DNA of 56,042 nucleotides, taken from contig NTKR01000002.1 of NCBI GenBank assembly GCA_002457065.1, positions 1-56,042 on the forward strand, given 5' to 3'. This DNA is from an alpha proteobacterium MED-G10 (GTDB lineage Bacteria > Pseudomonadota > Alphaproteobacteria > Methylaequorales > Methylaequoraceae). This document shows positions 10,042 through 16,506 of the stretch, piece by piece (position 1 is the stretch's first letter; every line of letters starts with the position of its first letter). Under the pieces are notes generated by a model, which saw only the letters and a program-made list of their open reading frames with translations, was not told the DNA's origin and searched no databases. The position numbers and the translations under genes were made by a program.

Positions 10042-10461
10042 ATGAATATGAACACAAATAAACATATTGATGTTGCTCTAGAGTTACTAAAAGAGTCGCC
10101 TTTAAAGGTTACAAATCAAAGAAATGACATTATAAGAATTCTATTTAAAAATGGAAATTGTCATTTTACTGCAGAGGATGTTCATTGCGAAGTTCAAAAA
10201 TTAGGCTTAAATATTTCTTTAGCCACAGTTTATAATTGTTTAAATCAATTTACAAAGCACAAGATCCTAAAATCAGTTAAAACTAGTTGTGATAAAATCT
10301 ATTTTGATACCAATGTTACTTCTCATCACCACTTTTTCTGCAAAACAACATCACAGTTAATTGATATAGATTCTAAAAACATAAAATTTTCCAAGCTTCC
10401 TAAAATTCCTGGCGGAAAAAAACTTCAATCGGTTGAGGTAGTTGTAAACATTACAGATTGA
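10042..10461 (+). CDS. irr: Fur-family iron response regulator Irr
   Basis: Irr is the heme/iron-status regulator of alphaproteobacteria. It represses iron-using genes and activates uptake when iron is scarce, and is destabilised or inactivated by heme. The 139 residues show the Fur-family winged helix (TNQRNDIIRILF, HFTAEDV, SLATVYNCLNQF) and the Irr-like regulatory part FDTNVTSHHHFF (His95-97) followed by LIDID. The CxxC zinc motif of many Fur proteins is absent, as in Irr. The N-terminal heme regulatory motif of Bradyrhizobium Irr is also absent. Two in-frame ATGs (10042 and 10048) are possible. A perfect ICE-type palindrome lies just downstream, which supports Irr rather than Fur or Zur. 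Confidence 0.85.
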   Translation: MNMNTNKHIDVALELLKESPLKVTNQRNDIIRILFKNGNCHFTAEDVHCEVQKLGLNISLATVYNCLNQFTKHKILKSVKTSCDKIYFDTNVTSHHHFFCKTTSQLIDIDSKNIKFSKLPKIPGGKKLQSVEVVVNITD

Positions 10462-10478
10462 TATTGATTATCATTATC
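10460..10478 (+). promoter_or_regulatory. Fur-box-like 19-bp site
   Basis: The sequence GATATTGATTATCATTATC matches the classical Fur box consensus at 17 of 19 positions by direct comparison. It overlaps the last bases of irr and lies about 28 bases upstream of the -35 element of the rubrerythrin promoter. Protein binding is inferred only. Confidence 0.55.
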
Positions 10479-10479
10479 G

Positions 10480-10502
10480 TAAATTAGAATTATTCTAATT
10501 TA
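10480..10502 (+). promoter_or_regulatory. ICE-type Irr operator palindrome
   Basis: A 23-base perfect inverted repeat with one central base contains TTAGAA-TTA-TTCTAA, the core of the iron control element recognised by Irr in alphaproteobacteria. It lies one base beyond the Fur-like site and three bases before the TTGAAC -35 element. Its location next to irr makes binding by Irr likely. Whether it activates or represses cannot be read from the sequence. Confidence 0.75.
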
Positions 10503-10505
10503 ATG

Positions 10506-10534
10506 TTGAACCTTTTTATAGTTTTTATTATATT
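10506..10534 (+). promoter_or_regulatory. Sigma-70 promoter of the rubrerythrin operon
   Basis: TTGAAC (10506-10511) and TATATT (10529-10534) are separated by 17 bases. Transcription would start near 10541, giving a leader of about 20 bases that contains AAGGAG six bases before the rubrerythrin ATG. Confidence 0.7.
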
Positions 10535-10561: not shown

Positions 10562-10978
10562 ATGTCTTTAAAAGGAAGTAAAACAGAAGAAAACTTGAAA
10601 GCAGCTTTTGCTGGAGAGTCACAAGCAAACAGAAGATATCTCTACTTTGCTCAAAAAGCTGATGTTGAAGGCCACAACGATGTGGCTACGGTTTTTAGAT
10701 CAACAGCTGAAGGTGAAACAGGTCATGCACATGGTCATCTCGAATTTCTTGAGGAAGTTGGGGATCCAGCAACAGGAGAGCCTATTGGAAATACCTCTGA
10801 GAACCTTAAAGCAGCAATTGCTGGTGAGACTCACGAATACACGGATATGTACCCAGGAATGGCGAAAACTGCCAGGGACGAAGGTTTTGATGAAATTGCT
10901 GATTGGTTTGAAACACTAGCTAAGGCTGAGAAGTCACACGCCGGTAAATTCCAAAGAACACTTGATGATATGGATTAA
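10562..10978 (+). CDS. Rubrerythrin, erythrin domain only
   Basis: Rubrerythrins are di-iron proteins that reduce hydrogen peroxide. The 138 residues form the four-helix di-iron domain only. Likely ligands are Glu19 (in ESQANRRY), the ExxH pair Glu52/His55 (GETGHAHGH), Glu89-Glu92 (GETHEY) and the second ExxH pair Glu123/His126 (AEKSH). The C-terminal rubredoxin domain of classical rubrerythrin is missing, so electrons must come from another protein; the Fe-S protein encoded next is a candidate. A strong AAGGAG precedes the ATG. The upstream Irr and Fur sites point to iron-responsive control. Confidence 0.92.
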
Positions 10979-11013: not shown

Positions 11014-12345
11014 ATGAGTGTAAAAGAAGGAAGCCTTGGTGCTCCAATCAGACATCCAGTTGATTGGGAGAACCCAAATTTTGTCGATGATAAACTTCTT
11101 GATGATGAATTGAGGAGAGTGTTTGACATTTGTCATGGATGCAGAAGGTGCTTTAATCTATGTGAAAGTTTTCCAAAATTGTTCGATTTGATCGATGAAT
11201 CGAAATCAGGCGAGCTTGATACTGTCGAAAGTAAAGACTTCAAAGATGTGGTAGACGCATGTACTCTTTGTGACATGTGTTTCTTGACAAAGTGCCCTTA
11301 TGTCCCTCCACATGAATTTAATCTAGATTTTCCTCACTTAATGTTGAGATATAGAGTTACAGAGCGAAAAAAAAAAAAAAATAGTACTCTCGACGATCAA
11401 TTGACAAAAACCGACAGAAACGGCAAGTTTTTTTCAAAATTTTCTAACCTTGCAAATTGGTCTACAAATACAAAAAATAAGATTACACGTCCATTAATGG
11501 AGTTACTTTTAAAAATAGATAAGGAAGCAGACCTGCCAAAATTTTACAAAGACACATTAATGAAATCTATTAAAAAAGATGGAGAAGAAAGTTTAAATAA
11601 ACCAATTGACAAAGTTATTGTTTTTCCAACGTGTTTTGTTAACTATAACAACCCTAGCTTAGGACATATTACTAAAAAAATTCTTGATGAGTTTGGTGTT
11701 GAAAATAAATTTATATATGAAGGTTGTTGTGGTATGCCACAACTTGAAGGTGGGGATATAGAGTCTGTAACTAATAAGGCTAATCAAACAAGTAAAAAGT
11801 TGAAGGATTATATTGACAACGGATACAAGATTCTTTCAATTGTTCCGTCTTGTACTTTAATGCTAAAATACGAGTGGCCACTTTTACTTCCGAGCTCTGA
11901 AGAAGTAAAATATTTGTCTCAAAACACTTTTGATATTTGTGAGTACCTCGTCAAATTAATTAATACAGAAAAACTATTCGATAAAATGAAACCATTAAAT
12001 AAAGATGAAACAATATCTCTTCACATATCTTGTCATTCTCGAGCACAAAACATAGGGCAGAAAGCTACAGAGCTTTTAAGACTTATTCCTGAAATCAAAT
12101 TAGATGTTATTGAAAGATGTTCAGGGCATGGAGGTTCGTGGGGTATCAAAAAAGATAACTTCAAAATGGCTATCAAAGTTGGAAAACCAGTATCTAGAAA
12201 GGTTATTCAGAGCCAAAATAAATTTGTAGTCTCTGAATGTCCATTGGCAGCACCTCATATAAAACAAGGAATGGACAAGATAGAAAAGAATGACGTAGAA
12301 GTTTTGTCACATCCTCTTGAAATATTTTTTAAATCTATTAGTTAA
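11014..12345 (+). CDS. GlpC/HdrD-like (4Fe-4S) oxidoreductase subunit
   Basis: This 443-residue cytoplasmic protein has two N-terminal cluster motifs: Cys40-43-46-50 (CHGCRRCFNLC) and Cys83-86-89-94 (CTLCDMCFLTKC). Two CCG-type domains follow. The first has the classical EGCCGMPQLEGGD; the second has a variant CSGHGG in place of CCGxGG. GlpC, LutA and HdrD/B proteins share this layout and pass electrons from flavoproteins to quinone or disulfide acceptors. Its place between rubrerythrin and DUF3501 matches a recurrent proteobacterial cluster and suggests it supplies electrons to rubrerythrin, which is inference. A run of 15 A (11367-11381) inside the gene could cause slippage. Confidence 0.85.
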   Translation: MSVKEGSLGAPIRHPVDWENPNFVDDKLLDDELRRVFDICHGCRRCFNLCESFPKLFDLIDESKSGELDTVESKDFKDVVDACTLCDMCFLTKCPYVPPHEFNLDFPHLMLRYRVTERKKKKNSTLDDQLTKTDRNGKFFSKFSNLANWSTNTKNKITRPLMELLLKIDKEADLPKFYKDTLMKSIKKDGEESLNKPIDKVIVFPTCFVNYNNPSLGHITKKILDEFGVENKFIYEGCCGMPQLEGGDIESVTNKANQTSKKLKDYIDNGYKILSIVPSCTLMLKYEWPLLLPSSEEVKYLSQNTFDICEYLVKLINTEKLFDKMKPLNKDETISLHISCHSRAQNIGQKATELLRLIPEIKLDVIERCSGHGGSWGIKKDNFKMAIKVGKPVSRKVIQSQNKFVVSECPLAAPHIKQGMDKIEKNDVEVLSHPLEIFFKSIS

Positions 12346-12356
12346 GGTGAAGAAGT

Positions 12357-12947
12357 ATGAAAAAATTTGAGATAAAAGAAGAAGACGTAATTGACATTGA
12401 CAGGTATATTTCTGAAAGAGCAGAAATAAAAAAGAAAATATCAGTTTTAAAAGAAAATCGACGAGTACCTGTTGGACCACATGCCACATTTTATTTTGAA
12501 TGTTACCAAACAATGATTTATCAGGTCCAAGAAATGTTGTACATTGAAAGAGGTGGCAAGGAGCAGTTATATGATGAAATTAAAGCCTACAATCCGCTTG
12601 TTCCAAAAGGAAAAGAACTTGTCGCAACTTTAATGTTTGAAATAGATAATGAGAAGAAAAGAAAGGATTTTCTAAATTCTGTAGGTGGAATTGAAGAAAG
12701 AATTTTCATTGAAATAAATAAAGAGAAAATTTTTGCAAAACCTGAAGATGATACTGAAAGAACCTCTGATGATGGAAAAGCCTCGTCAGTGCATTTTATT
12801 CACTTTCATTTTAGTAAAAGTCAGATAGAAAGTTTTATTAACAATGATAACAATGTTATAATCGGGTTTGATCACAAAAATTATAGTCACTTTAGCCAAC
12901 TTTCAAAAGAGTCAAAAGAAGAGTTATCTAATGATTTTGATATTTAG
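12357..12947 (+). CDS. DUF3501 family protein
   Basis: This 196-residue protein matches the DUF3501 family by its start (EDVIDIDRYISERAEIKKKI), the VPVGPHATFYFECYQT segment and the VQEMLYIERG motif. The family has no proven function. It is typically encoded beside rubrerythrin and a GlpC-like Fe-S protein, as here, with 11 bases between this gene and the Fe-S gene. The predicted protein is soluble and highly charged, with a His-rich stretch (HFIHFHF) near residue 143 that could bind metal. It ends one base before the convergent SH3 gene. Confidence 0.8.
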   Translation: MKKFEIKEEDVIDIDRYISERAEIKKKISVLKENRRVPVGPHATFYFECYQTMIYQVQEMLYIERGGKEQLYDEIKAYNPLVPKGKELVATLMFEIDNEKKRKDFLNSVGGIEERIFIEINKEKIFAKPEDDTERTSDDGKASSVHFIHFHFSKSQIESFINNDNNVIIGFDHKNYSHFSQLSKESKEELSNDFDI

Positions 12948-15128: not shown

Positions 15129-16073
15129 TTACAAATCACTAAATAATTGCGTTGATAGATATCTTTCAGCAAATGAAGGAATAATAATAACACTATTTTT
15201 GTTTTTCATTTTTGAGTCCTCGTGAATTTCAATAGCGGCAGCTAATACTGCTCCAGATGAAATTCCTGCAGCTATACCTTCAAGTTTTCCTAAACTCCTT
15301 GAGAAATTGAAAGCTGACGAGTTGCTAATTTGTAACACTTGGTCAATTATTTCTAAATCTAAATTTTTTGGAATAAAGCCAGCCCCAATTCCTTGTATAG
15401 AGTGTGAACCTGGATATCCTCCACTGATTACAGAAGAATCTTCAGGTTCAACAGCAATGATTTTAATATTTTTTTCTTTTTCTTTTAAAAATTTACCAAC
15501 CCCACTTATAGTTCCACCTGTCCCAACTCCAGAAATTAAACAATCAATTCTGCCGTCTGTATCGTCCCATATTTCTTGAGCAGTGGTGTTGAAATGAATT
15601 CTTGGATTGGCTTGATTACTGAACTGATTAAGAATAATACTATTTTTAATTCGTTGATGAATTTTTTCTGCCTCTTGGATGGCACCATTCATCCCAAACT
15701 CTTTTGGGGTAAGTGTAATCTTGGCACCTAAAAAATTAAGCATCTTTCTTCTTTCTAAAGACATACTTGTCGGCATTGTTAGGATAAGTTTGTAGCCACG
15801 TGCAGCACAAACAAAAGCTAAGGCAATTCCTGTATTACCTGATGTAGCTTCAATTATAACTGTATCTGAATTTATTTTTTTTTGTTTCTCTGCATCATTA
15901 ATCATAGCCAAACCTATTCTATCTTTAACTGATCCAAGAGGGTTAAAAAACTCAAGTTTTGCAATAATATTTCCGTACAGGTTAAATTCTCTTGCTATAT
16001 TATTCAGCCTTACCATTGGAGTTTTTCCTATAGTTTGATCAATAGAATCGAATATTTTTTTTTTAGATGACAA
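15129..16073 (-). CDS. cysK: Cysteine synthase A (O-acetylserine sulfhydrylase)
   Basis: CysK joins sulfide to O-acetylserine to make cysteine, using PLP. The 314 residues contain the PLP lysine in NPLGSVKDR (Lys50), the substrate loop EATSGNTG, the phosphate-binding GVGTGGTISG and the C-terminal ISSGA segment. Length and motifs fit CysK better than cystathionine beta-synthase. The start overlaps the end of an Rrf2 regulator gene by 11 bases, so the two are translationally coupled and the regulator probably controls this gene. Confidence 0.93.
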   Translation of the reverse strand: MSSKKKIFDSIDQTIGKTPMVRLNNIAREFNLYGNIIAKLEFFNPLGSVKDRIGLAMINDAEKQKKINSDTVIIEATSGNTGIALAFVCAARGYKLILTMPTSMSLERRKMLNFLGAKITLTPKEFGMNGAIQEAEKIHQRIKNSIILNQFSNQANPRIHFNTTAQEIWDDTDGRIDCLISGVGTGGTISGVGKFLKEKEKNIKIIAVEPEDSSVISGGYPGSHSIQGIGAGFIPKNLDLEIIDQVLQISNSSAFNFSRSLGKLEGIAAGISSGAVLAAAIEIHEDSKMKNKNSVIIIPSFAERYLSTQLFSDL

Positions 16074-16506
16074 AATCCACTTTCTTTTTTGATGGGTATT
16101 GATTCTTTGTTTTTTTTTCTAATTTGTAAATTTCTTCAATTGAAATTTCTTCAAGCAGAAGCGAACATTTTTTCGTGATTTTTGAGATAATTGGTTCGAT
16201 AATTTCTTTCGATAAATCTGAGTTGTATATTTCATTCTTTTTTTTATCTATTGTGACTGATGAAACAACATCTGAGATTTTAATTTTTCTTCTTTCTTTA
16301 GCTAGTCTGTATCCTCCATTTGGCCCCCTAGAACCGATAAGAATACCATTCTTTACAAGTGTTTGAAGTGTTTGCTCTAAATATCTTTTGGGAATACCTT
16401 GTCTTTTAGCAATAGCTATATTTTGAACAGGATTAACACCGGAATTAATAGCAATGTCTATGACGGCTTCAATTGCGTAAATGATCCTTTTTTGTACTTT
16501 GAACAA
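16063..16506 (-). CDS. Rrf2-family transcriptional regulator without the Fe-S cysteines
   Basis: This 147-residue protein has the Rrf2 winged helix: YAIEAVIDIA, the recognition region IPKRYLEQTLQTLVKNGIL and the wing GSRGPNGGYRLA. IscR-type members bind [2Fe-2S] through three cysteines between about residues 90 and 110. Here only one cysteine is present (KKCSLLL), so it is not an Fe-S sensor of that kind. The overlap with cysK recalls Bacillus CymR, an Rrf2 protein that senses cysteine by binding CysK. That parallel is inference. Confidence 0.85.
   Translation of the reverse strand: MFKVQKRIIYAIEAVIDIAINSGVNPVQNIAIAKRQGIPKRYLEQTLQTLVKNGILIGSRGPNGGYRLAKERRKIKISDVVSSVTIDKKKNEIYNSDLSKEIIEPIISKITKKCSLLLEEISIEEIYKLEKKTKNQYPSKKKVDFVI

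Follow-up and report, generated by a model that had tools for sequence, protein, structure and literature searches.

A predicted composite operator for Irr and Fur between irr and a rubrerythrin gene in small-genome Alphaproteobacteria

Which regulators act on the rubrerythrin gene (rbr) that follows the regulator gene irr, and in which direction they act, is the question raised by the 56,042-nucleotide stretch of DNA analyzed in this study (hereafter the window). The source lineage belongs to the small-genome Alphaproteobacteria, and its named relatives are mostly marine. An earlier note on this DNA had described, between irr and rbr and in this order, a Fur-box-like site with 17 of 19 matches, a 23-base perfect palindrome of the ICE type containing TTAGAA-N3-TTCTAA, and a sigma-70 promoter; the two sites were re-read and recomputed, the promoter was recomputed, and all three were recovered at the positions given in Table 1. 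To that description the present analysis adds the apparently unequal age of the two sites, the 22-bp spacing between them, the fixed distance from the ICE to the -35 hexamer, and a candidate peroxide-defense regulon.

Table 1. Features of the irr-rbr stretch, with positions counted from the first base of the window.
Feature	Position	Strand	Details
irr	10042..10461	+	Fur-superfamily regulator, 139 aa, closest to Irr/IrrA
Fur-box-like operator GATATTGATTATCATTATC	10460..10478	.	17/19 on +, 18/19 on -
ICE (predicted Irr operator) TAAATTAGAATTATTCTAATTTA	10480..10502	.	23-base perfect odd palindrome
ICE core TTAGAA-TTA-TTCTAA	10484-10498		12/12 match
Sigma-70-type rbr promoter, TTGAAC-17-TATATT	10506..10534	+	17-base spacer
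rbr -35 hexamer TTGAAC	10506-10511
rbr -10 hexamer TATATT	10529-10534
rbr	10562..10978	+	short rubrerythrin, 138 aa (Pfam); ATG at 10562
Fe-S / cysteine-rich (CCG, GlpC-like) protein gene	11014..12345	+	probable operon partner
DUF3501 protein gene	12357..12947	+	probable operon partner; Pfam PF12007, 200 bits

Layout and gene products of the irr-rbr stretch

The TGA stop codon of irr overlaps the Fur box, whose first two bases are the G and A of that codon, and the -35 hexamer of the rbr promoter starts after a 7-base gap from the end of the ICE core. Since the order rbr, cysteine-rich Fe-S protein and DUF3501 behind irr recurs at L213 and L214, which come from two unrelated small genomes, the operator probably serves an operon. 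Farther along the window, an Rrf2-type regulator gene (16063-16506) adjoins a cysteine synthase gene (15129-16073), both named by reading translations.

Compared to curated models, the upstream regulator scored 134.1 bits for IrrA (NCBIfam, E 3e-39) and 123.3 for Irr, versus 60 for PerR and 53 for E. coli-type Fur, with both Irr scores falling under the curated equivalog cut-offs (150 and 170, respectively). By these scores the window regulator is a divergent member of Irr. The HxH heme-binding motif (H95-H96-H97) is invariant across the 14 sequences aligned. The CP dipeptide, the heme regulatory motif of the B. japonicum type, is absent from the window's Irr protein; this motif is not common to every Irr (review PMC7762939), and membership is therefore independent of it. 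Because this is an Irr without a CP-type heme regulatory motif, its loss in response to heme or peroxide is not assured. A second Fur-superfamily protein, encoded elsewhere in the genome (C19), is nearest to ferric uptake regulator models, with 106 bits against a cut-off of 146. Genes irr and fur lie approximately 15-20 kb apart on the same contig in several genomes, some of them outside the family. The rbr product contains a rubrerythrin diiron domain (Pfam PF02915, 105 bits) without a rubredoxin domain; it covers part of the full-length NCBIfam rubrerythrin model with a score below the cut-off, and it is 75-92% identical to nearly all of the distant Alphaproteobacteria compared.

Conservation and spacing of the two sites

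The palindrome exceeds what AT-rich chance would give, as the earlier note had held: it alone among the odd palindromes of the 56 kb scanned has arms exceeding 8, and under a first-order Markov model of intergenic sequence a 12/12 ICE has P = 1e-4. For a Fur box matching at 17/19 or better the same model gives P = 5e-5, and the window holds a single ICE of at least 11/12 and a single Fur box of at least 15/19. In its own genome (G000; assembly 78% complete), searched by pattern only, exact ICE cores number six in 994 kb, where the reversed control gives one; Fur-box places with three or fewer mismatches also number six, and the control gives none. Two of the six ICE cores (C16:14545 and C23:32429) lie inside coding sequence and were set aside. 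The palindrome was neither randomly placed in the genome nor missing from relatives, either of which the earlier note had named as counting against it.

All pairs among four congeners agree at every base (44/44) of the stretch that runs from the irr stop through the ICE. Identity at irr third codon positions is 45-56% in five of the six pairs and 78% in the closest pair (L016-L017), and that of the 44 bases following the ICE is 55-66% in five pairs and 89% in the closest. Genera g1, g7 and g10 share a distance of 22 bp between the centers of the Fur box and the ICE; in two further genera, where the pair lies farther from the irr stop, this distance is 23 bp (L039, with a weaker Fur box of 15/19) and 21 bp (L040). 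Altogether, the spacing is 22 bp in eight family genomes and 21-23 bp in two more, ten in total. Because the spacing to the ICE is kept while the distance to the irr stop shifts, the Fur box is in register with the ICE and not with irr. The composite was found in 8 of the 32 family genomes, once per irr-rbr locus, and the control returned 0; one genome (G019) has two places that match, both adjoining irr genes. Together with the kept distance, this count supports the earlier proposal that Fur and Irr signals may both arrive at one promoter.

The Fur-box assignment is based on at least 15/19 matches to GATAATGATAATCATTATC, on conservation, on the presence of a genomic Fur and on family boxes at iron-uptake genes, and that of the ICE on the occurrence of TTAGAA-N3-TTCTAA at iron and oxidative-stress promoters in genomes with irr. 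When katG instead of rbr follows irr, the ICE is retained and the Fur box is gone. When 385 genomes from across the class were searched for ATCATT together with an exact ICE, the only matches were composites from the window's own genus and chance-like ones. In genus g8 (loci L022-L032), neither an ICE nor rbr follows irr, and two g8 genomes have an ICE 166-167 bases upstream of katG elsewhere (L147, L149).

Across the family and the named genomes of the Alphaproteobacteria, rbr comes next after 53 irr genes. Of the 52 testable irr-rbr regions, 38 contain an ICE matching at 11/12 or better (0.3% of shuffled regions) and 45 contain one at 10/12 or better (1.9% of shuffled regions), where shuffles are mononucleotide and the four genomes shared by the two collections are included. 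Of the 54 irr loci without a following rbr, which in the window's own family are mostly irr-katG, 10 hold an ICE of at least 11/12. The distance from the ICE core to the first TTGA(C/T/A) -35 hexamer is 4-9 bases in 43 of the 46 irr loci that have an ICE of at least 11/12, counted without the four duplicate genomes, and the gap is 1 in one of the 46. In addition, the TTAGAA-N3-TTCTAA sequence is retained even at 60-70% G+C. Because the ICE and its gap to the -35 recur across the class, the irr-ICE-35-rbr arrangement is old, and this recurrence also argues for the earlier suggestion that the palindrome is the operator of the neighboring irr product.

In the sequences compared, the ICE is the ancient part, to which one family later added the Fur box; a single-contig genome of 1.32 Mb (G325) has irr-ICE-rbr without a Fur box. 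A single case suggests that the addition may have happened more than once, namely a Fur-like palindrome over the irr stop in L112 (Rhodospirillales, 66% G+C), 33 bp from the ICE as counted by eye. At another locus (L179, genome G079), three ICE-like sites lie between irr and rbr, two of them 22 bp apart and one inside the promoter. Because the second ICE-like site sits at that distance upstream of an ICE, a 22-bp spacing seems suited to two dimers.

Other ICEs and Fur boxes in the family

Within the family, exact ICE cores occur upstream of genes for peroxiredoxin, KatG, glutathione reductase, IscS, pqq functions and molybdopterin oxidoreductase; the ICE-target genes were named by reading translations, except for the window genome's own peroxiredoxin, pseudoazurin and pqqB. 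In the own genome, two exact ICEs 22 bp apart lie directly upstream of the peroxiredoxin (redoxin) gene (L009:4290-4326; G000:C11), where they cover the -10 and start region of a promoter read by eye as TAGACA-17-TAGAAC. Tandem ICEs 22-24 bp apart are also found at peroxiredoxin in other genomes and genera (L131-L133, L144). In two distant genomes, an ICE-like site was seen by eye within the -35/-10 spacer of katG (L178) or rbr (L179). An iscS-like cysteine desulfurase gene also has an ICE, 117-120 bases before it (L140, L141, L146), and in L140 and L141 this ICE is followed shortly by a TTGACT -35-like hexamer. Another ICE precedes pqqB, at a distance that would accommodate a small pqqA (L012:4292; G000:C23:41291), and is found in G019 as well (L142, L145); control of PQQ synthesis by Irr would be unexpected.

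Family Fur boxes are found at genes for TonB-dependent receptors, FutA-type Fe3+ transporters and a hemin transporter (HmuT), all named by reading translations. Because these are uptake genes for iron and hemin, the family's Fur looks iron-responsive, and the same placement at iron and heme uptake genes is in line with the Fur part of the dual input that had been proposed for rbr. The clearest other Fur array of the own genome precedes the pseudoazurin gene, just upstream of which lie overlapping GATAAT repeats with a Fur box of 17/19 (L012:844-874; G000:C23:37849-37873). A second Fur-ICE composite of the same geometry precedes a molybdopterin oxidoreductase gene in G006; counted by eye, its two sites are separated by 21 bp, and a -35 comes after a further seven bases. 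Family genomes encode up to three LysR proteins, and no OxyR look-alike was found among the five LysR proteins read by eye (own genome and three relatives).

Proposed regulation, alternatives and known systems

Because the Fur and Irr sites lie side by side and are both strictly conserved, one promoter probably reads two iron signals. We favor, with moderate confidence, the reading that the irr-rbr stretch is a composite operator for Irr and Fur before the rbr operon, in which Irr represses and Fe-Fur modulates. The ICE would be the operator of Irr, the product of the gene just upstream, and Irr bound there, immediately upstream of the -35, would repress rbr when iron and heme are low and peroxide is absent. 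Once heme or peroxide inactivates it, Irr would leave the ICE and rbr would be switched on; peroxiredoxin and katG would likewise be held down until heme or peroxide removes Irr. When iron is plentiful, Fe-Fur would occupy the Fur box, which lies two helical turns (22 bp) farther upstream on the same face, and would probably act from there on Irr occupancy or on RNA polymerase, through anti-repression or activation; it could displace Irr, co-bind with it or touch RNA polymerase. Both signals would push rbr in the same direction, toward expression at high iron and peroxide. The analysis demonstrates the sites together with their conservation, spacing and regulon company; binding by the two proteins, the sign of both inputs and the Fur-Irr interaction are inferred.

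A repressor role for Irr would fit the ICE over the -10 of peroxiredoxin and the ICE-like sites inside the core promoters of katG and rbr in the distant genomes. At the rbr promoter of the window, the ICE just upstream of a near-consensus -35 fits steric repression, but an activator could bind at such a position too. The Irr of B. japonicum is a repressor of mbfA and bfr that is degraded in response to heme and to H2O2 (PMC4902296), and an irr mutant of R. sphaeroides, which has ICEs at mbfA and ccpA, is more peroxide-resistant (PMC3413700). Additionally, Fur and Irr might act as a mixed complex at the two-turn spacing, with Irr as the family's main peroxide regulator and Fe-Fur as its partner at selected promoters, an extension that we hold only tentatively.

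The opposite sign is possible, though we consider it rather unlikely: Irr might activate rbr from the ICE at approximately -50 when iron is low, and Fe-Fur might repress rbr or displace Irr when iron is high, which would make rbr a low-iron gene. The ICE-to-35 spacing is very constant, as activators often need, and Irr, which activates or represses depending on the location of the ICE, is reported to activate other genes (review PMC7762939). Moreover, the rbr transcript of Ca. Pelagibacter ubique rose 1.57-fold under iron limitation (PMC2864753), an observation from an organism whose rbr promoter is unseen, which speaks against simple repression by Irr at low iron. However, near-consensus -35 elements usually need no activator, the ICE-like sites in core promoters and over the peroxiredoxin -10 fit repression, and switching on heme or iron enzymes during iron shortage makes little sense.

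Other readings concern the individual sites. The overlap of the Fur box with the irr stop, and its absence from most irr-rbr and all irr-katG loci, would be explained if only the ICE were functional and the box were a by-product of the stop codon and AT-rich sequence. This is improbable, given that the box is identical or near-identical in three genera despite diverged flanks, keeps register with the ICE and not with irr (L039, L040), recurs in a composite at an unrelated gene (G006) and has a counterpart over the irr stop in a relative with 66% G+C (L112). It is less probable still that Fur does not act on rbr and that the box, at the 3' end of irr and upstream of the rbr promoter, serves another use, such as blocking irr read-through or loading Fur for control of irr; the conserved distance is the one to the ICE and the rbr promoter, while that from the irr stop to the box varies. 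Finally, although the palindrome can fold as a 10-pair RNA hairpin, it is extremely improbable that it is a hairpin or irr terminator and not a protein site, as the fold z-score of the region is only -1.64 and the ICE sequence itself is kept at 60-70% G+C at a fixed distance upstream of the -35. Terminator and riboswitch explanations of the palindrome were dropped, with no terminator call there, no Rfam match and the same z-score.

The separate elements, namely ICEs, Fur boxes and the control of rubrerythrin-like genes by Irr, are already known. The literature searched yielded no operator in which a Fur box and an ICE are paired at a fixed spacing, with key older ICE work lying outside that search; the Fur-Irr composites appear new, and no priority is claimed for predicting the ICE between irr and rbr. 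The conserved ICE-to-35 geometry makes Irr targets predictable across the class and their sign testable. In addition, the conserved DNA architecture bears on how iron state and peroxide stress are joined where the usual peroxide regulators are not evident, and on the division of labor between Fur and Irr in small-genome Alphaproteobacteria that keep both.

Compared to known systems, the favored composite operator for Irr and Fur shares with the ICEs at mbfA and bfr of B. japonicum and at mbfA and ccpA of R. sphaeroides an Irr-type regulator, an ICE and a rubrerythrin-like or peroxide-detoxifying target, but here the target is a soluble short rubrerythrin adjoining irr and the ICE is paired with a Fur box. 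For mbfA of R. sphaeroides, the start was mapped to a position inside the ICE (PMC3413700), whereas here the ICE directly precedes the -35. Promoters of iron and heme uptake genes, including the family examples at TonB receptor, FutA and HmuT genes, have Fur boxes of the same GATAATGATAATCATTATC type; in contrast, the rbr box precedes its promoter and has an Irr site next to it, and rbr is not an iron-uptake gene. Rhizobial control by Irr and RirA also involves two iron-sensing regulators in interlinked circuits of opposite senses (PMC7762939), while in the present case Irr is joined by its own homologue Fur, whose site stands at a fixed two-turn spacing in the same promoter. The family ICEs resemble PerR and OxyR peroxide regulons in marking rbr, peroxiredoxin, katG and glutathione reductase, but here the regulator would be Irr and the targets include iscS, pqq and a Mo-enzyme gene; the list of targets and the positions of their ICEs make this gene set a candidate PerR-like peroxide regulon.
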